From a virus: DNA of 31,509 nucleotides. How positions within the stretch are numbered: the first letter of the stretch is position 1; each line of letters opens with the position of its first letter. The notes under the pieces are model-generated. The model searched no databases, was not told where the DNA came from, and saw only the letters and a program-made list of their open reading frames with translations. The DNA lies in the IMG/VR virus record IMGVR_UViG_3300031607_000012, positions 1-31,509 of that record. One strand, given 5' to 3'. Of the stretch, positions 2,713 to 27,119 are shown in pieces. Both the position numbers and the translations under genes were made by a program.

Positions 2713-3327
2713 ATGGGCAACACAATGACTGACAAAAAAGCAGAATTTATTCGCGCGCTGGTAGCAATTAACTTGGGTTTGCCGACCTGGATAACAGTGC
2801 GAGGCGACAATGTCCCGCGCTATCTGTCTGCGCGGGACGACGGGGACCAAGTAAAACATTACGTTCTTTCCGCACCAGGTGAGGGCGATACAGCGCCGAC
2901 CTTGATTGATGATGAGGGCGACACCTTGAGCTTTACACTCCGCGAGTGTAAGCAGTGGGACGTAACGTTTCATTATGATGCAAGCGCTGCAACGCGTATC
3001 GAGATAAACGAGGCCGCGCGCGTGTTTACGGGTGAAGTACCTGATAATTATAATTGGGAATTGCCCAGCGCGCTGCGGGAAGAGGGCGAACTAAAATTGC
3101 AGGAATTTTATGATTGGGCGGTATCAAACCGGGTGCCGCTTTACATGGTGATCGGATGGAGCAAAAAAGGCGATACCGAGGAATGCGGTGAATTTAAATC
3201 GACTGGCGCGACAATGGGACGCCTTAGCCAGTCGGTGGGCAAGGTGTCCAGGGCGGCACGATCACCGGAGGAGAAGGCTGACTCTGCACGCGATATGGTT
3301 GCGAGCTTACTGCGCGGTTTCAAATAA
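2713..3327 (+). CDS. Hypothetical early protein (204 aa)
   Basis: Not recognised. The first ATG at 2713 has the ACAACTGAGG leader 8 nt upstream. A second ATG at 2725 is possible but less well placed. The N-terminal half is acidic and probably beta-rich (residues 22-85). A WDVTFHYDA segment lies near residues 82-90, and a helical part (about 119-140) is followed by VPLYMVIGWSKKGD. The C-terminus, rich in Ser, Arg and Ala, ends in an amphipathic helix. No metal-binding or catalytic signature is visible. Confidence 0.7.
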   Translation: MGNTMTDKKAEFIRALVAINLGLPTWITVRGDNVPRYLSARDDGDQVKHYVLSAPGEGDTAPTLIDDEGDTLSFTLRECKQWDVTFHYDASAATRIEINEAARVFTGEVPDNYNWELPSALREEGELKLQEFYDWAVSNRVPLYMVIGWSKKGDTEECGEFKSTGATMGRLSQSVGKVSRAARSPEEKADSARDMVASLLRGFK

Positions 3328-3334
3328 ACTCACG

Positions 3335-3351
3335 GGCCCCGTATAGGGGCC
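3335..3351 (+). promoter_or_regulatory. Stem-loop covering the methyltransferase ribosome-binding site
   Basis: GGCCCC (3335-3340) pairs with GGGGCC (3346-3351) around a GTATA loop. The only good Shine-Dalgarno sequence for the ATG at 3357 is AGGGG (3345-3349), which falls inside the 3' arm. If the RNA folds this way, translation of the methyltransferase would be repressed. This is inference from sequence. Confidence 0.45.
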
Positions 3352-3369
3352 GACCAATGGGGCAAATAA
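3348..3369 (+). repeat. 22-bp direct repeat bracketing the methyltransferase gene, copy 1
   Basis: Exact 22-base match to 4031-4052, beginning GGCCGACCAATGGGGCAAAT. The flanking bases differ at both ends. This copy contains the proposed ATG (3357) of the methyltransferase gene. Confidence 0.95.
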
Positions 3370-4052
3370 AAGTGAACGTACTAATAGGATGCGAATACAG
3401 TGGCGTAGTCCGCGACGCCTTTATAGCCGCTGGTCATCATGCAATTAGTGTCGACCTACTGCCGACGGAATCACCCGTCGACTCTTCAGTGTGTATTCAC
3501 CACGAAGGCGACCTGATTGATTTTGTCGATCAGTGCAACGGCGCTTCTCTGTTCTTTGATTTGTTGATAGCGCACCCGCCCTGCACCTATTTGTCTGGTA
3601 GCGGGCTGCACTGGAACAAGCGTGTTCCTGGCAGGGCGGCTAAAACAGAACAAGCGCTTGATTTTGTGCGCTACATTATGGACCTGGACATACCGCGTAT
3701 AGCGATAGAAAACCCCGTGGGCTGTATTAGTACGCGCATTGATGCGACGCTTTATGGTTTCGACAACGCCAAAGCGGCACAGTACATACAGCCCTTTGAT
3801 TATGGGCACGACGCAAGTAAAAAGACGGGGTTATGGTTAAAGAATCTACCTCCCCTTACTGCTGACGCTAATAATTACGTGGAGCCAAGACTGATAGAGT
3901 ACCCAAAAAATTCTGGCTCAATAGTTAAACGCTGGGCGAACCAGACGGACAGTGGGCAGAACAAGTTACCGCCCAGCGCAACACGCGCGAAAGACCGCGC
4001 CAAATTTTACACTGGCTGGGCGAACGCCATGGCCGACCAATGGGGCAAATAA
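3357..4052 (+). CDS. C5-cytosine DNA methyltransferase-like protein, short form
   Basis: Predicted S-adenosylmethionine-dependent DNA cytosine methyltransferase-like protein of 231 aa. Visible motifs are a nucleotide-binding-like GCEYSG (residues 11-16, position of motif I), an acidic end of strand 2 (SVDLLPTE), AHPPC with the candidate catalytic Cys76 (motif IV), and IENPVG (117-122, motif VI). The C-terminal RAKFYTGWANAMADQW is typical of compact phage members. It is shorter than classical C5 enzymes (over 300 aa) and has no evident target-recognition domain, so its specificity and activity are open. It could modify phage DNA against host restriction. The start and stop codons each lie in one copy of a 22-bp direct repeat, and the ribosome-binding site is in a hairpin. 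An alternative start is GTG 3372. Confidence 0.75.
   Translation: MGQIKVNVLIGCEYSGVVRDAFIAAGHHAISVDLLPTESPVDSSVCIHHEGDLIDFVDQCNGASLFFDLLIAHPPCTYLSGSGLHWNKRVPGRAAKTEQALDFVRYIMDLDIPRIAIENPVGCISTRIDATLYGFDNAKAAQYIQPFDYGHDASKKTGLWLKNLPPLTADANNYVEPRLIEYPKNSGSIVKRWANQTDSGQNKLPPSATRAKDRAKFYTGWANAMADQWGK
4031..4052 (+). repeat. 22-bp direct repeat bracketing the methyltransferase gene, copy 2
   Basis: Exact copy of 3348-3369. Here the same bases are read in another frame as the C-terminal residues ADQWGK plus the stop codon. The next gene begins 1 bp later. Confidence 0.95.
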
Positions 4053-4053
4053 C

Positions 4054-4275
4054 ATGCGTGTTAATTATAGGAGGGGATGGCAACGAAAAGTGCTAGGGCT
4101 GCTGGTCATGTTGGAGGCGCTTATAGCGTTTGCACTGATATTTGTTGTGCTGCTTTTGGTAGCTAATTGGGACTACCAGGACGAGCTGGCAGAGTACCAG
4201 CACGCGTGCACTATGATCGAAGCGGGCGCCTGGCCGATAGAGGTCGAGCCATCATGTAAGGATGAGAAATTATGA
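4054..4275 (+). CDS. Small single-pass membrane protein
   Basis: A 73-aa protein with a basic N-terminus (MRVNYRRGWQRK), one long hydrophobic segment (about residues 13-38, LGLLVMLEALIAFALIFVVL onward) and an acidic C-terminal tail containing two Cys. By the positive-inside rule the N-terminus is cytoplasmic and the tail periplasmic. The ATG at 4054 lies 1 bp after the methyltransferase stop. The end overlaps the next gene by 4 bp (ATGA). Its place two genes before a secreted transglycosylase-like protein allows a role in envelope remodelling, but a spanin or inhibitor function cannot be shown. Confidence 0.65.
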   Translation: MRVNYRRGWQRKVLGLLVMLEALIAFALIFVVLLLVANWDYQDELAEYQHACTMIEAGAWPIEVEPSCKDEKL

Positions 4276-4808
4276 GAGCGTATTATTGTAAAAAAGCAAA
4301 GCGCATGGTGTCTACAACGCCCCGCGTTCCAGGGTTTGGGCCACGCTGTGACTACTGTGGTATCACTGTCGCTGACTCCGATTTTAAGCGTAAACACCTG
4401 GACGATTACCCGGCGATCGAGCCGTCGCAAGCATTAAAAAACAGTAGCCTACGTTTTGGTGGCGAGGCGCTGTATGCAGAGCGCGACATTCAAAAAATGG
4501 GTGGTTTTTACAGCCGACACGTGCGCGCGCTCACTAACGAGGGCCTGTACTCAAAGTCCGACATTGCAGCGGAGCTAGGCTGGCGTGATCAGCAGATTGA
4601 GGCGCTACAGCTAATTGTCAGTCTTGATTTTAAACCAGTGATACCGCTCACTGACGAGCAGCGCAAAGCAATACTTGGTAGCGGCACTGATTCGACGCGC
4701 CGTTGCCGGATAATAATAAGCGGCTCACATTCCAGGTGTAATAGCTGTGGACTGGTTTGGGATACAAACGACTGTGACCCGCCAAACTGCGGTGGGCGAG
4801 CCCTGTGA
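4272..4808 (+). CDS. Cys-rich zinc-ribbon-like protein with HTH-like centre
   Basis: A 178-aa protein of unknown function with an AAGGATGAG ribosome-binding site just before the ATG. The N-terminal part has a CDYC knuckle (Cys26, Cys29). A central segment (about residues 91-112, SKSDIAAELGWRDQQIEAL) resembles a helix-turn-helix. The C-terminal part has CNSC (156, 159) plus Cys168 and Cys173, a plausible four-Cys zinc ribbon. The architecture suggests a nucleic-acid-binding protein. It overlaps both neighbours by 4 bp, so it is cotranslated with them. It is the first of three Cys-rich proteins before the polymerase. Confidence 0.65.
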   Translation: MRAYYCKKAKRMVSTTPRVPGFGPRCDYCGITVADSDFKRKHLDDYPAIEPSQALKNSSLRFGGEALYAERDIQKMGGFYSRHVRALTNEGLYSKSDIAAELGWRDQQIEALQLIVSLDFKPVIPLTDEQRKAILGSGTDSTRRCRIIISGSHSRCNSCGLVWDTNDCDPPNCGGRAL

Positions 4809-16512: not shown

Positions 16513-19296
16513 TTACGGGGTAAGTGTGCCACGTTGTGGGTCGCCTCTGGGCGTCTGTTCAACTGGTTCACCCTGTAGCGGATCATCCTGCACCAATTCT
16601 AAAAAGGGCTCCATGCCCAGTCGCCCAAGAATTTTTTCTGCCGCCTGCGAGCCGAGTGTCACTTTATTAAGATCAGCCAACAGTGCAATCTTTTCCGGGT
16701 CAGCCATGGCCTTGGCCAGCGCCCTTTGGGTCCCTTCACTGGCGACACCCATGGAGGCGGTAAACGCCCTACCCCGTGCAGACAGCGGTGCGAATGGCAC
16801 CCGTGCGAATCTCATTACCCCTTGCAGCCCTGGCTGGGCCCGCGCGAACATAGTGGACAGGTCCAGTGGCACAGGCTTTTCCAAGTCCCTGTTGACTACG
16901 CGCAACACGTCACGCACCAGCCCCAGGTTTTCGTTGAAGCTGTCACCCAACACACTCTTCGTCAGCAAGGATTGGTCCGACCGCAAGAACTGGTCAATGG
17001 AGTCAGCGCTAAGGCGCCCTCTGCTGTCTGTAACGCTATCCCGCACATTAGTAGCCAAGGAGCGATCAAACAGCCCACGTCGGCTTTCAGGCAGCAAGCG
17101 GCGCACAATCTGTGCATCCCGTGGCCCCATGTTACTTAACACTTCACTGGCCAGCCGTGCAGGATCGGCGGTACGCAGCCCAACCAGTTTTTCCATGCGG
17201 TTCAACAGGCTTGTCATGGTTTTTTCCGCCTCGCCCAGCTTTACTGCAGCGCGGCGCGCATCGCTCAGGGAACCAACTATTTCTGGCCGACCCTTAAAAA
17301 GCACTTCGAGCGAATCCTTGTTATTACGCAGAAATGTACGCAACCGGTTAGGGTCAATTCGCCCTGTTTCATCATTCACGAAACGACGCTGTATGGTGCC
17401 CAGAACAGAGTCCTGAGTAGACAGCAAGGCGGATTGCGCGTTAGGCAACGAACCCAGGGCGTCTACAAATTCCTGCGACACTTCACGGCCGCGCAGTAAC
17501 CGGTCTACGGATTCTTCCCCGCTGAGAGCGAACAGCCCGGTGCGCGGGTCTTTTTCCATGAACCGGCCCACGATGCCCTGGTCAATCTGACGGGCCGCGT
17601 CAGCATATTGTGACTCCAGCTGCAGTACGCTGCGCAGCTGGTCGTCGCCCAAAGAATCGTTACGGGCTTTAACAATAGAGTCCTGCATACGCTTTAGAAT
17701 GCGCTCCCGCTGGGGCTCATCCCGTATGCTGGGGCGACGTAGCTCCCGGCGGACATCGCGCAACACCCGTTGGGTCTCACCCAAGCTAGGCGGGTTGTCC
17801 ACGAGCTGTTTGGTCCACTCCAGTACGTTGTTAGGCCCCATCGTCAGCACGTCATCAACTGCTGTGCCAGCGCTATCCGCTTCGGTTAACAGCCTTGACT
17901 GTTCCTGCAAGCTGATAGAACGCAAAATGTCCTGACCTTCCTGACCACGCAGTCGCGCAGCTTCCGCGCGCACCGGCTCGAAACTTATTCTTATATCGCC
18001 TTCCTGTTGCAGGTCGTCGAACTGGCGACGCAACGGGGCGAACACTTCCTCCCGCTGTTGTTCAAGGATACGGCGCGTGTTGGCTGCCGCATCTTCTGGG
18101 GCTCTGGCAGTGGCGAAAGCTGCACTTTCCGCATTCCTTAATGACCCTTCAGCGTCGCGGGTATTACGTGCTGCCACAGTTGTCAGACTGCGACCTATTG
18201 CGGCCCGGTCCTGCGGTGTGGCAGGGGGGCCGAAAGTAGCGTCGTCGAGTTTACCCACAATGCGTTTCTGTTCCTCCCCAATCTCACGCAGACCACTACC
18301 CACTTCACGGTTGGACATAGCGGCGGATTCTGCACGGATGACCTCTGGAGAGCGTGCTACCTGCCCTGTGGTCAAAGGCAGCGCATCCCCTGTAACCGAC
18401 TCGACCCGTCCCGACAGTTTCTTGGCTTCGTCTATGACTTCCCGCATTGGCCTGTCGCCTAGGGCGTCCAGGAGGGACATAGGAACCCCTGATGCTGCAG
18501 CCAGCGCGCGTCTAAACGCCCCAACTGCTGCACCCCCCACTATGGTTGCAACTGATGCTTTACCACTGCGCTTCATCGCGCGGTCCATTATCTCATTTGG
18601 GGTTAAGTCGATCAGCCCCCGATCCGCCGCTCTGGACAGGCGGATCAGCTCACCCATGCCCTCACCAACACCTGTACCTAATACTGTACCAACCCCTGCC
18701 CCCGCAGGGCCTGCCACTGAGCCCCCCAAGAACCCTGCTACGCCGCCGACTACACCACCACCAAGGACCATACCACCTGGAGCGCCACCAGTTATATCAC
18801 CCATACCAGCACCAGGTGGGTTAAAAATAGTCCATTGCCCAGCACCAGGTGGCTTAAATTCCAGCTCTTCTGTTTGGGGGCCTATTCGCACTTCTGAGTC
18901 ATCACCCAACGCGCGACGGGCCAGTTCTATCTGGCTTGCAGGGTCCTGTGCACTAGGAGAACCTAAACCGAACTGATACCGGGCAGACAGTGGCGCGCCC
19001 TGCGGGGAAATATCGTTTGGCAAGCCTGCAATACCATTATCAGCTCGGGGCGTGGCGGCACCCATGCGAGGTGGCACGTCTTGCGCGCTCGGGGCTCCAG
19101 TACCTGTGGACTGCGGCGTGGCGGCCCCCATGCGAGGTGCGGCAACTTGCGTACCAGGGGCGTCTGTACTCACAGCCCGTGGCGTGGCGGCACCCATGCG
19201 AGGCGAAGCACCTTGCGCTGACTGCTCAATCGGCACAAAGCGGAAACCAGTGGGAGGCTGCGCTTGCTCCTGTTCTATTGGTACGAACTTGGCCAT
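16513..19296 (-). CDS. Large internal virion / DNA ejection protein
   Basis: A 927-aa structural protein, probably ejected with the DNA. It begins with two FVPIEQ motifs (4-9, 20-25), then three copies of PRMGAATP at residues 32, 54 and 76, an exact 22-residue period. The Gly/Ala-rich stretch 166-216 (GGMVLGGGVVGGVAGFLGG and onward) could insert into or cross the host membrane. The remaining about 700 residues are mostly long charged helices (coiled-coil-like) without enzymatic motifs. Short N-terminal motifs and a Gly-rich segment before a helical body are usual for podovirus ejection proteins. It follows two smaller internal-protein genes with 1-bp spacings, just before the lysis cassette. 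Confidence 0.75.
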   Translation of the reverse strand: MAKFVPIEQEQAQPPTGFRFVPIEQSAQGASPRMGAATPRAVSTDAPGTQVAAPRMGAATPQSTGTGAPSAQDVPPRMGAATPRADNGIAGLPNDISPQGAPLSARYQFGLGSPSAQDPASQIELARRALGDDSEVRIGPQTEELEFKPPGAGQWTIFNPPGAGMGDITGGAPGGMVLGGGVVGGVAGFLGGSVAGPAGAGVGTVLGTGVGEGMGELIRLSRAADRGLIDLTPNEIMDRAMKRSGKASVATIVGGAAVGAFRRALAAASGVPMSLLDALGDRPMREVIDEAKKLSGRVESVTGDALPLTTGQVARSPEVIRAESAAMSNREVGSGLREIGEEQKRIVGKLDDATFGPPATPQDRAAIGRSLTTVAARNTRDAEGSLRNAESAAFATARAPEDAAANTRRILEQQREEVFAPLRRQFDDLQQEGDIRISFEPVRAEAARLRGQEGQDILRSISLQEQSRLLTEADSAGTAVDDVLTMGPNNVLEWTKQLVDNPPSLGETQRVLRDVRRELRRPSIRDEPQRERILKRMQDSIVKARNDSLGDDQLRSVLQLESQYADAARQIDQGIVGRFMEKDPRTGLFALSGEESVDRLLRGREVSQEFVDALGSLPNAQSALLSTQDSVLGTIQRRFVNDETGRIDPNRLRTFLRNNKDSLEVLFKGRPEIVGSLSDARRAAVKLGEAEKTMTSLLNRMEKLVGLRTADPARLASEVLSNMGPRDAQIVRRLLPESRRGLFDRSLATNVRDSVTDSRGRLSADSIDQFLRSDQSLLTKSVLGDSFNENLGLVRDVLRVVNRDLEKPVPLDLSTMFARAQPGLQGVMRFARVPFAPLSARGRAFTASMGVASEGTQRALAKAMADPEKIALLADLNKVTLGSQAAEKILGRLGMEPFLELVQDDPLQGEPVEQTPRGDPQRGTLTP
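19048..19203 (-). repeat. Three 66-bp-spaced coding repeats (PRMGAATP)
   Basis: Near-identical 24-base units at about 19180-19203, 19114-19137 and 19048-19071 encode PRMGAATP. The + strand shows GGCGTGGCGGC, CCCATGCGAGG or close variants each time. The spacing is exactly 66 bp, so the repeat keeps the reading frame whenever copies are gained or lost. Confidence 0.9.
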
Positions 19297-19297
19297 G

Positions 19298-20755
19298 CTA
19301 TTCCGCCTCTATGTGACCTATCACGCTTCCATCGTCGCCTAAAACTTCCCAGCGGCCATCTGCACTGCGGTTGCCCAAGCTGGTGTTGGGGGGCAGGGCA
19401 CTGCTAGCCTCCACTTCTGTCATCCCTGCTGCCTGACTGCCTGCACCCGTACCGCTGGTCACGCCGCTGCGCTGGTCGAGCTCCGCCAGCTTGGCTTGGC
19501 GCCGCGTTTCAAAGGCACTGGTGTCGATGGACGCTGACTGTGACAGGAAGGCGCGCGCTGCGTCTGTATCCTCAGCGGCCAGCGCGCCTCTACGGCGTTC
19601 AACCGCCAATTCAGCACTCGCCATAAGACTTGCGACCGCCATTTTGTTCGCCATTTCACTTCGCCCGAAGTTGGCGAACGCGGCCCGCGCCATTTCAACT
19701 TCTTTTTGGTTCAAGTTACCCTTGAACTTCGAGAAGCCATTAATGATCAGCTCGGTGCTTACCCGAACAAACTCTTCTTTTTTAGCAATTTCTTCTGGTG
19801 CAATACCCAAGCCTTCCGCCACGGAATTTAGGTTCAAGCCAAAGTCGTCAGCGATTTGCTGCAGGGGCAGTAACAATTCTTGCCCACGGCCTGTGCTTAC
19901 ACCTGCCACGAGCAGGTCACCAGCTTCCTGCAGTCCGGGCAGCATGTTGGCCGCTACGTCGCCTGCTTGTACGGTACTTTCTATGGCGGATACCAACATT
20001 TTCGCGTTAGCTTTTGCGTAAGCAGTCTCGCTTGTGTTGTTGATGGTTACACCAGAACTCACAGGGGCCGCTTCCCCTGGTGCATCGCTGCGTAGCACAA
20101 ACGTTTGCCCGGTAGGGGAATCAGGGTCGTCTACAGCCACCACCGGTTGATTGTTGGTCAACAGCAATTTACGGCCCGCAACGAAGTCTTCCCTGGGTAT
20201 AAAACCGGAATCAAAGTCTGCCTTCAACTGAGCAATGTCCGAATAAATTTTGGGCTCGCCCTTGTTTCGGAACACTTCTTGGTTGGTCCCCGGGTCGACC
20301 AGTGCTGCACCTTCTGCTACAGATATTGGCGTTGGCGCTGCGGGGGTAGCCGCCATGCTCAATACGCCCTCGACGCCTTGGTCAGCGAATAACTTCGCAA
20401 ACGCGGTTGGGTCGCTCTGAATCCGCGCCAGTAACTGCTGGGCGTCAGTGCCCTGCCCCGACGGTTGCGGTGTAGGCGGCTGTTGCGGCTGCCCACCACC
20501 CAAGGCGAATTGGAGCGGGTTTTGCTGCACCTGCTGATTGACTGACTGCAGGGCACCTGGGTTCATGGCCCCGTTCTCTATCAGGATACTTTGCAGCGCC
20601 TTGCGGAAGGGGTCAGACTCTTCTATAGCTTGGCGTTCCATTCTGTTTCGCGCCAGCTCGCCGCCACCGACTGTACCGATGGCTTGCCCCAGGGTGCCAC
20701 CTAAACGAGCGGCTGCACTCGGCCCCGACGGGCCTGTTGCTAATACGCGTGCCAT
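19298..20755 (-). CDS. Internal virion / ejection protein (485 aa)
   Basis: A probable structural protein, helical and Ala/Gln-rich. The N-terminus has a Gly/Ala segment (LGGTLGQAIGTVGGGELARN), then a Gln/Pro-rich low-complexity linker (about residues 79-103). A helix-rich middle follows (ANMLPGLQEAGDLLVAG; EEFVRVSTELIINGFSKFKG) and a short beta-like C-terminal end (SADGRWEVLGDDGSVIGHIE). No enzymatic motif is seen. It sits between two other probable internal proteins, with gaps of 1 bp on each side, so the three are likely made in fixed proportion and packed together. Confidence 0.7.
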   Translation of the reverse strand: MARVLATGPSGPSAAARLGGTLGQAIGTVGGGELARNRMERQAIEESDPFRKALQSILIENGAMNPGALQSVNQQVQQNPLQFALGGGQPQQPPTPQPSGQGTDAQQLLARIQSDPTAFAKLFADQGVEGVLSMAATPAAPTPISVAEGAALVDPGTNQEVFRNKGEPKIYSDIAQLKADFDSGFIPREDFVAGRKLLLTNNQPVVAVDDPDSPTGQTFVLRSDAPGEAAPVSSGVTINNTSETAYAKANAKMLVSAIESTVQAGDVAANMLPGLQEAGDLLVAGVSTGRGQELLLPLQQIADDFGLNLNSVAEGLGIAPEEIAKKEEFVRVSTELIINGFSKFKGNLNQKEVEMARAAFANFGRSEMANKMAVASLMASAELAVERRRGALAAEDTDAARAFLSQSASIDTSAFETRRQAKLAELDQRSGVTSGTGAGSQAAGMTEVEASSALPPNTSLGNRSADGRWEVLGDDGSVIGHIEAE

Positions 20756-22073: not shown

Positions 22074-23042
22074 TTAAACCGTTCTTTTTTCCGACTTAAT
22101 GACATGAACATACGGGGAAACTACTTCCGATACAGCCAAGTAGAGACCGTTAGGGCTAAAGTCAACACTAGTACCAAAGTAACCTAACTCTATAGTGTCC
22201 GCCACGAGAGACCAGTCAGAGGTATCTATAACACTAAAATAAGGAGTTTCTTCATGTGCAACAGCCAAATAGCTACCATCTGTGCTGAAATCCACATCCC
22301 TTATAGCTTCCTCTATAAGGGAAATACTAGCTATGTTCGTCCAGCCGGTTGTTTCAAGGACAGATATGTAGGGAGAAACAGAGTTAGTAACTACCAGCTT
22401 AGACCCATCTGGACTAAATTGCACAGCGGTGACAAAATCGGAAAAGTTAGGTATTCCCGCTAATTCTGACCAGTCAGTTGTATCTATTACTTTTAGATAA
22501 TAAGGTCCAAACCCAGCACTAAACGCCAAAAGAGTGCCTGCCGGGTTGAAACACACGTCACGGCATACTTCTGTAGCTGTGGCCGTATTTGAAAGTATTG
22601 ACCAGTCAGAGGTATCAAGTATAAATAAGGCGTTCTGATAAGCTACAGCGTGACCAAAAGCCAAATAATCTCCGTTGGGACTAAAATCTACAGCGTACGC
22701 CGCCGAAGTTCCTGAGATAGCAGGAGTAGTAATTTTAGACCAGTCAGAAGTATCATAAACTAATAAGTACGGGTATGAAGACCCAGCAAGCGCCATCATT
22801 GTGCCGTCTGGACTAAAAGATATATCTATTATACCTACACCAATGTAAAGGCTATCTACTACTAAACTCCAGTCGCTGGTGTCTATCACATTCAGAGTAC
22901 CATTAGAACCAGTCGCTAACAGAGTTGAATCATGGTTAAATTCAGCGCAAAAAGCGGCTTCTCCTACATTTGTTAGCCCTTGAACTAAGCCCCACGCACT
23001 ACCAGTCGCCACCCGAAGCATTTTGTTCATTAAAAAACTCAC
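22074..23042 (-). CDS. Seven-bladed WD40/YncE-like beta-propeller virion protein
   Basis: A 322-aa protein made almost wholly of seven repeats of about 43-46 residues. Each blade has a (V/A/S).FSPDG..LA strand pair and ends at (V/I)DTSDWS: DTSDW at residues 54, 97 and 143, DTTDW at 187, ETTGW at 230, DTSDW at 273, with W17 in the first blade. This is a WD40/lactonase-like propeller without visible catalytic residues, so binding is the likely role. Lying among tail genes, it may be an adhesin or tail decoration. The gene is more A/T-rich than its surroundings (22801-22860 has 22 G+C of 60, against 35 of 60 at 23281-23340), hinting at later acquisition. The start is GTG 23042 with AGGTGAT upstream; ATG 23030 is an alternative. 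Confidence 0.8.
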   Translation of the reverse strand: MSFLMNKMLRVATGSAWGLVQGLTNVGEAAFCAEFNHDSTLLATGSNGTLNVIDTSDWSLVVDSLYIGVGIIDISFSPDGTMMALAGSSYPYLLVYDTSDWSKITTPAISGTSAAYAVDFSPNGDYLAFGHAVAYQNALFILDTSDWSILSNTATATEVCRDVCFNPAGTLLAFSAGFGPYYLKVIDTTDWSELAGIPNFSDFVTAVQFSPDGSKLVVTNSVSPYISVLETTGWTNIASISLIEEAIRDVDFSTDGSYLAVAHEETPYFSVIDTSDWSLVADTIELGYFGTSVDFSPNGLYLAVSEVVSPYVHVIKSEKRTV

Positions 23043-26126: not shown

Positions 26127-27119
26127 TCATACTGTAAACTCCGCGTCACCGCCCAGGGTCCATGAAGATACATTTAGAGTATCACCAGTATCTTGGCCAG
26201 TATCCCCTGATATTTGTAAAACATCCCCAATAGAGACTGAAATAGATTGTGTGTCAGTCACTGCGCCAGTGACGTCGCTCACTGAAAATAAGATTGCCAA
26301 AACATTATTTTTAAACACTGATACAGTTGCATTGTCTGAGCTTGCAGATATTACCGATCTGACCGTTCCAGACGCTGTGATAATAACGCTTGGCCCAAAT
26401 TCAGTCCTGTCTGGGATCACCTTTAATACATCGTTACTGGCGTTATTGCCCTGCATTCTAGGTGCCACCCACCTAACAGTAGAAGACGCAGTAACTGTTT
26501 TACTTCCTATCCTAGCTGAAACCCAAGCATCTTCAGCAGCCCCTGTTTGAAACTTTTCAGCTCCTAGAGTACCAGTAGCTACTTTATCATTAGTTACAGC
26601 ATTATCGGCTACTTTATCATTAGTTACCGAGTTATCGGCCAGTTTGGCCGTTGTCACGAAACCATCCGCCATCTTGCCCCGGCCCGCCGCGTCCGCTGAT
26701 AGGAGGGCAGCCGCTAGTTTGGCCGTTGTAATGTAACCATCCGCCATCTTGGCGCGACCTGTGGCGTCAGCACTGAGTATGCCGTCCACGAGATTAGCGG
26801 TAAGCAAAACTATACCGGTAAAAGACACTACACCTGCGTTGGTCAGCTTAGTTTCGTTCCCGGCTGGGTCTTGGTAGAACAGCTCAATAACGCCCGAACC
26901 CACGTCTTTGGTGTAGAAGTGACCTTGGCCCGCTACCGCTGTTGGGGTAGTCTGAGCGAGTAGCTTCACGACTTCATGCTTGCCTATATCGCTATCGTCA
27001 GTCGCCCTATGATCGACACCAAAGTTCGTGACTACCGCAGCCCGCGCCGCCCGCGCGTTCTGCGGGTATTGCGAAACAATGTCGCCGTCTTCCGGGTTAC
27101 TTACGTCCCAATCAGCCAT
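26127..27119 (-). CDS. Tail fibre with repeated shaft and distinct tip domain
   Basis: A 330-aa probable receptor-binding fibre. Residues 1-95 are an N-terminal attachment region. The shaft follows, with SADATGRAKMADGYITTAKL (116-135) nearly repeated at 141-160, then ADNSVTNDKV and ADNAVTNDKV (161-180), patterns typical of collagen-like or beta-helical fibre shafts. Residues 195-330 are a Ser/Thr/Val-rich beta tip with no resemblance to the base. The composition changes sharply: 26281-26340 (tip) has 18 G+C of 60, while 27001-27060 (base) has 40 of 60. This suggests the tip was exchanged with another source. Host-range variation is the expected consequence. The stop is 34 bp before the next start. 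Confidence 0.78.
   Translation of the reverse strand: MADWDVSNPEDGDIVSQYPQNARAARAAVVTNFGVDHRATDDSDIGKHEVVKLLAQTTPTAVAGQGHFYTKDVGSGVIELFYQDPAGNETKLTNAGVVSFTGIVLLTANLVDGILSADATGRAKMADGYITTAKLAAALLSADAAGRGKMADGFVTTAKLADNSVTNDKVADNAVTNDKVATGTLGAEKFQTGAAEDAWVSARIGSKTVTASSTVRWVAPRMQGNNASNDVLKVIPDRTEFGPSVIITASGTVRSVISASSDNATVSVFKNNVLAILFSVSDVTGAVTDTQSISVSIGDVLQISGDTGQDTGDTLNVSSWTLGGDAEFTV
26579..26638 (-). repeat. Tandem 30-bp repeat in the fibre shaft
   Basis: The blocks 26579-26608 and 26609-26638 differ at 3 of 30 bases and encode the two ADN(S/A)VTNDKV units. Exactly 30 bp, so copies can change in number without a frameshift. It lies at the boundary between the G/C-rich base and the A/T-rich tip. 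Confidence 0.9.

Follow-up and report, generated by a model that had tools for sequence, protein, structure and literature searches.

What does it mean when a viral gene is bracketed by two exact copies of the same short sequence? The question is raised by a gene for a C5-cytosine DNA methyltransferase-like protein (positions 3372–4052, + strand) in a viral DNA of 31,509 nucleotides, referred to below as the window. The 22-mer GGCCGACCAATGGGGCAAATAA occurs at 3348–3369 (copy 1), between the upstream gene 2713–3327 (+ strand, 204 aa) and the methyltransferase gene, and again at 4031–4052 (copy 2), where it constitutes the final 22 bp of the methyltransferase open reading frame; both copies are on the + strand. 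A preliminary description of this DNA regarded the arrangement as a removable cassette or a programmed deletion.

The repeat and the gene that it brackets

The identity of the two copies is exact, and the bases next to them differ, as had been described, each copy being embedded in its own unique flanks. A chance origin is ruled out by comparison with shuffled and Markov sequences: in 100 length-matched first-order Markov sequences, exact direct repeats reached maxima of 13–17 bp, as against the 22 bp observed. No third copy with up to three mismatches is present in the window, and none is expected from 100 shuffles either. A diverged extension of the repeat beyond 22 bp (from 3370 and from 4053 onwards) was rejected, with P values of only 0.03–0.06. 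The 11-base part of the repeat reported to recur at 2350–2360 is indeed found there, inside a coding frame (GGQIR), and since it is coding, and the chance that some 11-mer of a 22-mer recurs in the window is roughly 0.2 by our own estimate, it needs no explanation; a special meaning for this near-chance match was rejected.

The product of the bracketed reading frame is a predicted small phage-type C5-cytosine DNA methyltransferase with a class I methyltransferase fold of the M.HhaI/DNMT3 type. It matches phrog_757 (PHROG 757; E 4.6e-49, residues 5–230 of the window protein) and no model in the Pfam and NCBIfam libraries, and tblastn identified methyltransferase relatives in 150 phage records, all at less than 60% identity. 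At the catalytic Pro-Cys motif, Pro74 and Cys76 are invariant among 34 sequences, with Pro75 preceding Cys76 in the window protein, and the segment Glu118-Asn119-Pro120, which holds the Glu-Asn motif, is nearly invariant in the same set. The predicted structure model, for which the alignment comprised the window protein and the fetched homologous loci, has a pLDDT of 90.1, and compares with DNMT3A/3B, M.HhaI and M.HaeIII at Z 12–13 over about 205 residues, with an rmsd of 4–5 Å.

The position of copy 1 relative to the gene depends on the choice of start codon. The reading frame is open from ATG 3357, which lies in copy 1, and a start at this codon would merely prepend MGQIK to the protein. The N-termini of the homologues follow the pattern M-[NRK]-VLI-x-CE-x-SG, and their initial methionine aligns with GTG 3372, two bases past copy 1. 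Because the homologues begin where GTG 3372 stands, this codon is probably the true start, which would place the whole of copy 1 before the gene. The earlier assignment of the start codon to copy 1 and of the stop codon to copy 2 is thus upheld for the stop, while ATG 3357 is only the first possible start. An intergenic hairpin, GGCCCC-GTATA-GGGGCC (3335–3351, + strand), reaches 4 bp into copy 1 with its 3′ arm; its fold is not significant relative to shuffled sequences (z −1.39), and it lacks a T-run.

Origin of the upstream copy

Based on comparison with homologues, copy 2 is taken as the original, coding for the conserved C-terminal tail of the methyltransferase. It reads, in the frame of the gene, ATG-GCC-GAC-CAA-TGG-GGC-AAA-TAA, i.e., (M)ADQWGK-stop, and closes a C-terminal motif, A-x-A-M-A-x-x-W-G, which is the C-terminus in most close homologues, often with the stop codon directly after it, and which, in the structure model, is predicted to close the C-terminal helix. 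A position-by-position scan of the fetched loci with the 22-mer placed all of the best 15 matches listed (17–19 of 22 letters) at methyltransferase 3′ ends, and one homologue with 43% protein identity (L002) carries ATGGCCGACCAGTGGGGC at its 3′ end. The preliminary description had also considered that the repeat might be explained by a protein motif conserved at the two ends of the gene; such a motif is found at the 3′ end only.

Copy 1, read in the frame of the upstream gene as GCC-GAC-CAA-TGG-GGC-AAA-TAA, has the same reading as the methyltransferase tail. Retaining ADQWGK-stop as it does, and with the near-matches listed above all being methyltransferase 3′ ends, copy 1 most likely duplicates the 3′ terminus of the methyltransferase gene itself. 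The junction that follows it, TAA-AA-GTG, looks like a head-to-tail junction between two gene units. We therefore consider it reasonably probable that copy 2 is the original and that copy 1 is a duplicate of the tail, set before the gene by local recombination.

Such an arrangement could arise if the methyltransferase gene, or its end, were duplicated in tandem, tail to head at TAA-AA-GTG, and most of the first unit were subsequently deleted, so that only its final 22 bp would be left as copy 1. Alternatively, the same product would result if a polymerase switched templates and so inserted the 22 nt in a single step. The order of events is one that we infer, and tandem duplication followed by deletion is the most likely route, since phages amplify and delete segments at identities of 6–10 bp, as in T4 (PMC9391042). 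The loss of the first unit is likewise an inferred step, because no other trace of that unit remains: similarity to the gene in the region 2713–3347 is no better than in shuffled sequences (P 0.67). On the downstream side (4053–4500), a weak candidate for a methyltransferase remnant (P 0.02 by mononucleotide shuffling) was rejected. No tandem methyltransferase pairs were found among the sampled loci, and the event appears as a singleton, since translated remnants of the methyltransferase tail were absent upstream of the gene in the other family members examined. No close relatives that could polarise the duplication were found.

A local duplication as the origin of copy 1 is further supported by the neighbourhood, where a 63-bp duplication of a 3′ end is found about 2 kb away. 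The two segments (1369–1431 and 1658–1720, both + strand) are 95% identical and bracket the gene 1429–1695; each comprises the 3′ end of a gene, its stop codon and the leader that follows, the first belonging to genes 1152–1406 and 1429, and the second to genes 1429–1695 and 1718. Genes 1152–1406 and 1429–1695 are tandem paralogues whose proteins are 49% identical overall, and the 95% identity of the 63-bp segments suggests a subsequent exchange involving the 3′ ends of the paralogues. The layout around 1429–1695 matches the repeat arrangement of the methyltransferase gene, and here the upstream gene has been retained. The longest exact repeats between gene start and gene end among 30 genes of the window belong to gene 1429 (40 bp), the methyltransferase gene (22 bp) and gene 1718 (14 bp), followed by 19298–20755 (12 bp) and gene 2484 (11 bp, a shared leader), and the remaining genes have 10 bp or less. 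An exact leader, AACAACTGAGG, is present at 1410, 1699, 2464 and 2694, i.e., before genes 1429, 1718, 2484 and 2713.

Additional structured or repetitive segments are present in the window. A strong G+C-rich hairpin with a perfect 9-bp stem and without a T-run is located at 2424–2444, just past gene 1718–2413. The large reading frame 16513–19296, in the structural half, contains three imperfect repeats with a spacing of 66 bp (19041–19218), the reading frame 26127–27119 contains tandem repeats of 30 bp and 75 bp (26578–26787), and units resembling GACCAGTCAGAGGTATC are repeated at 22209–22767 within the reading frame 22074–23042.

Taken together, ordinary phage genome evolution looks like the best account of the 22-bp repeat, which would then represent the scar of a local duplication or recombination, and not a built switch.

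Alternative explanations of the repeat

A different origin, which we hold possible but doubtful, is that the methyltransferase gene entered by recombination at a short sequence shared between gene junctions, such as a stop codon, a ribosome-binding stretch or a hairpin arm, and that flanking copies were left behind. Two-sided junction repeats are found in other members of the family. L308 has a 19-bp hairpin arm that continues into a similar ribosome-binding stretch and ATG, the whole being present on both sides of the gene (2463–2503 and from 3051 onwards), and its methyltransferase has a C-terminal extension beyond the conserved WG that is made from the repeat. The junction repeats of L150 and L084 match at 34 of 39 bp and 32 of 42 bp, respectively, while those of L030 and L019 are leaders of 25 bp and of 21/22 bp. 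In Aeromonas phage phiWae15 (L003), the last 17 bp of the upstream gene (DDEL-stop; 2983–2999) are identical to those of the methyltransferase gene (3663–3679); no empty-site relative of this phage was found. A locus from a Chloroflexi MAG (L115), with a junction repeat of 14 bp, carries TAACGCAAACCGTTRGG at 2470–2491 and 3153–3174, on both sides of the methyltransferase gene, and GTTRRRY looks there like a putative integron attC core. The junction repeats in the family vary in kind, and include ribosome-binding leaders, parts of neighbouring genes and one that is possibly of integron type. As a separate observation, two methyltransferase loci with equal match length and score (L135 and L137) are located about 10 kb apart on one chromosome (CP026657.1).

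Repeats of at least 14 bp were present at 8 of 226 methyltransferases compared with 14 of 1536 neighbouring reading frames (pooled p = 0.004), and the leader AACAACTGAGG before four nearby genes is also in line with entry at a junction. The enrichment is suggestive, but the threshold of at least 14 bp was picked after seeing set A (7 of 155 methyltransferases against 13 of 1032 neighbouring reading frames, p = 0.010), and significance is not reached in the independent set B by itself (1 of 71 against 1 of 504, p = 0.23). A further point against entry at a shared junction is that the repeat in the window is methyltransferase-family coding sequence, and not a leader present at other genes. The junction repeats in the family nevertheless agree with a model in which genes arrive through recombination at their borders, a process considered for boundary sequences (PMC3029335). 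A broader proposition appears rather unlikely to us, namely that short gene-junction copies mediate both gain and loss of the small phage C5-cytosine methyltransferases of PHROG 757 by recombination, with paired repeats marking recent moves in many unrelated phages and with the window gene still excisable. L003, L019, L030, L084, L150 and L308 constitute a testable list of loci with junction repeats that could reveal a route by which phages gain genes.

That the repeats are kept by selection for excision, yielding modification-plus and modification-minus phage, is improbable. The geometry on which this idea was built is correct: the gene stands between exact repeats of 22 bp, and crossing-over between these would remove 683 bp and leave a single copy 1 bp before ATG 4054, the start of the next gene (4054–4275, + strand, 73 aa, hydrophobic segment, PHROG 6168). 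The gene could accordingly be deleted cleanly if the copies recombined, at whatever frequency an identity of 22 bp permits, and an origin by recombination fits as well. Nothing indicates programming, however, and for a removable or programmed cassette we find no support. Protein coding accounts for one of the copies, and the repeat was not seen upstream of the methyltransferase homologues in the fetched loci. None of the window genes scanned was recognised as encoding a site-specific recombinase, a scan that covered genes carried on this possibly incomplete contig only. Searches of IMG/VR and the phage collection yielded neither an empty site nor a close relative; the 22-mer has no exact match elsewhere in IMG/VR, and a megablast search with 20 kb against the phage collection gave no match.

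As for the surrounding genes, no relatives were found of the upstream gene 2713–3327 and no syntenic relatives of the genes flanking the methyltransferase gene, and none of the methyltransferase-neighbouring genes is shared by 80 IMG/VR loci with related DNA polymerases. A search with 14 early genes against all loci, including Rollin, RHph_TM3_14A and the 80 polymerase loci, gave a match to KPP25 only. Two candidate relatives were rejected: phage vsMR (31 kb), where only the methyltransferase matches (46% identity), and KPP25, which has matching replication proteins and one matching small early gene (5357) but no synteny around the methyltransferase. With no close relative found in these searches, the cassette reading stands as improbable and unproven.

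It is also very improbable that copy 1 is retained as a translation leader of the methyltransferase gene, whatever its origin. The sequence TGGGGC places GGGG 9 nt before GTG 3372 in copy 1 and 8 nt before ATG 4054 in copy 2, a spacing that fits a weak ribosome-binding site at both genes, but GGGG is a poor Shine-Dalgarno match, an exact identity over 22 bp far exceeds the needs of a shared ribosome-binding site, and the origin of copy 1 would be left unexplained. Finally, although the sequence is an assembled IMG/VR virus record, an artefact of metagenomic assembly is scarcely credible, since the copies sit in different unique flanks and assembly is hardly able to create a repeat of 22 bp, which is shorter than the usual assembly k-mers.

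Comparison with known systems

A repeat-bracketed gene can pass for a cassette when one of the copies is the conserved 3′ end of the gene itself, and similarities to several known arrangements are noted. As with phage morons, an extra gene is placed among phage genes, but no related genome that lacks the window methyltransferase is known. The start-associated sequences of Cluster K mycobacteriophages (PMC3203893) are short repeats before start codons, to which AACAACTGAGG at four genes in the window may be compared; AACAACTGAGG differs in its letters and has far fewer copies, and the 22-bp repeat is not of this kind.

A likeness in form is offered by the boundary sequences at mosaic phage-genome junctions (PMC3029335) and by the PeSL cassettes of T4-type phages (cited in PMC4503421), which are reported to have border repeats with a stem-loop. 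Both share with the window short repeats at gene borders, with a possible role in recombination and the exchange of genes, whereas the repeat described here is the coding end of a gene, and not a widely shared leader or promoter, and has no known exchange partner.

The dmd-tifA region of T4, where tandem amplification and deletion occur at microhomologies of 6–10 bp (PMC9391042), provides the comparison for the proposed route. The T4 events were seen under selection and their repeated units are intact, while a 22-bp remnant without an intact first unit is found here. What the two would have in common is a local head-to-tail duplication and a compensating deletion at short identities, processes that are fast in phages.
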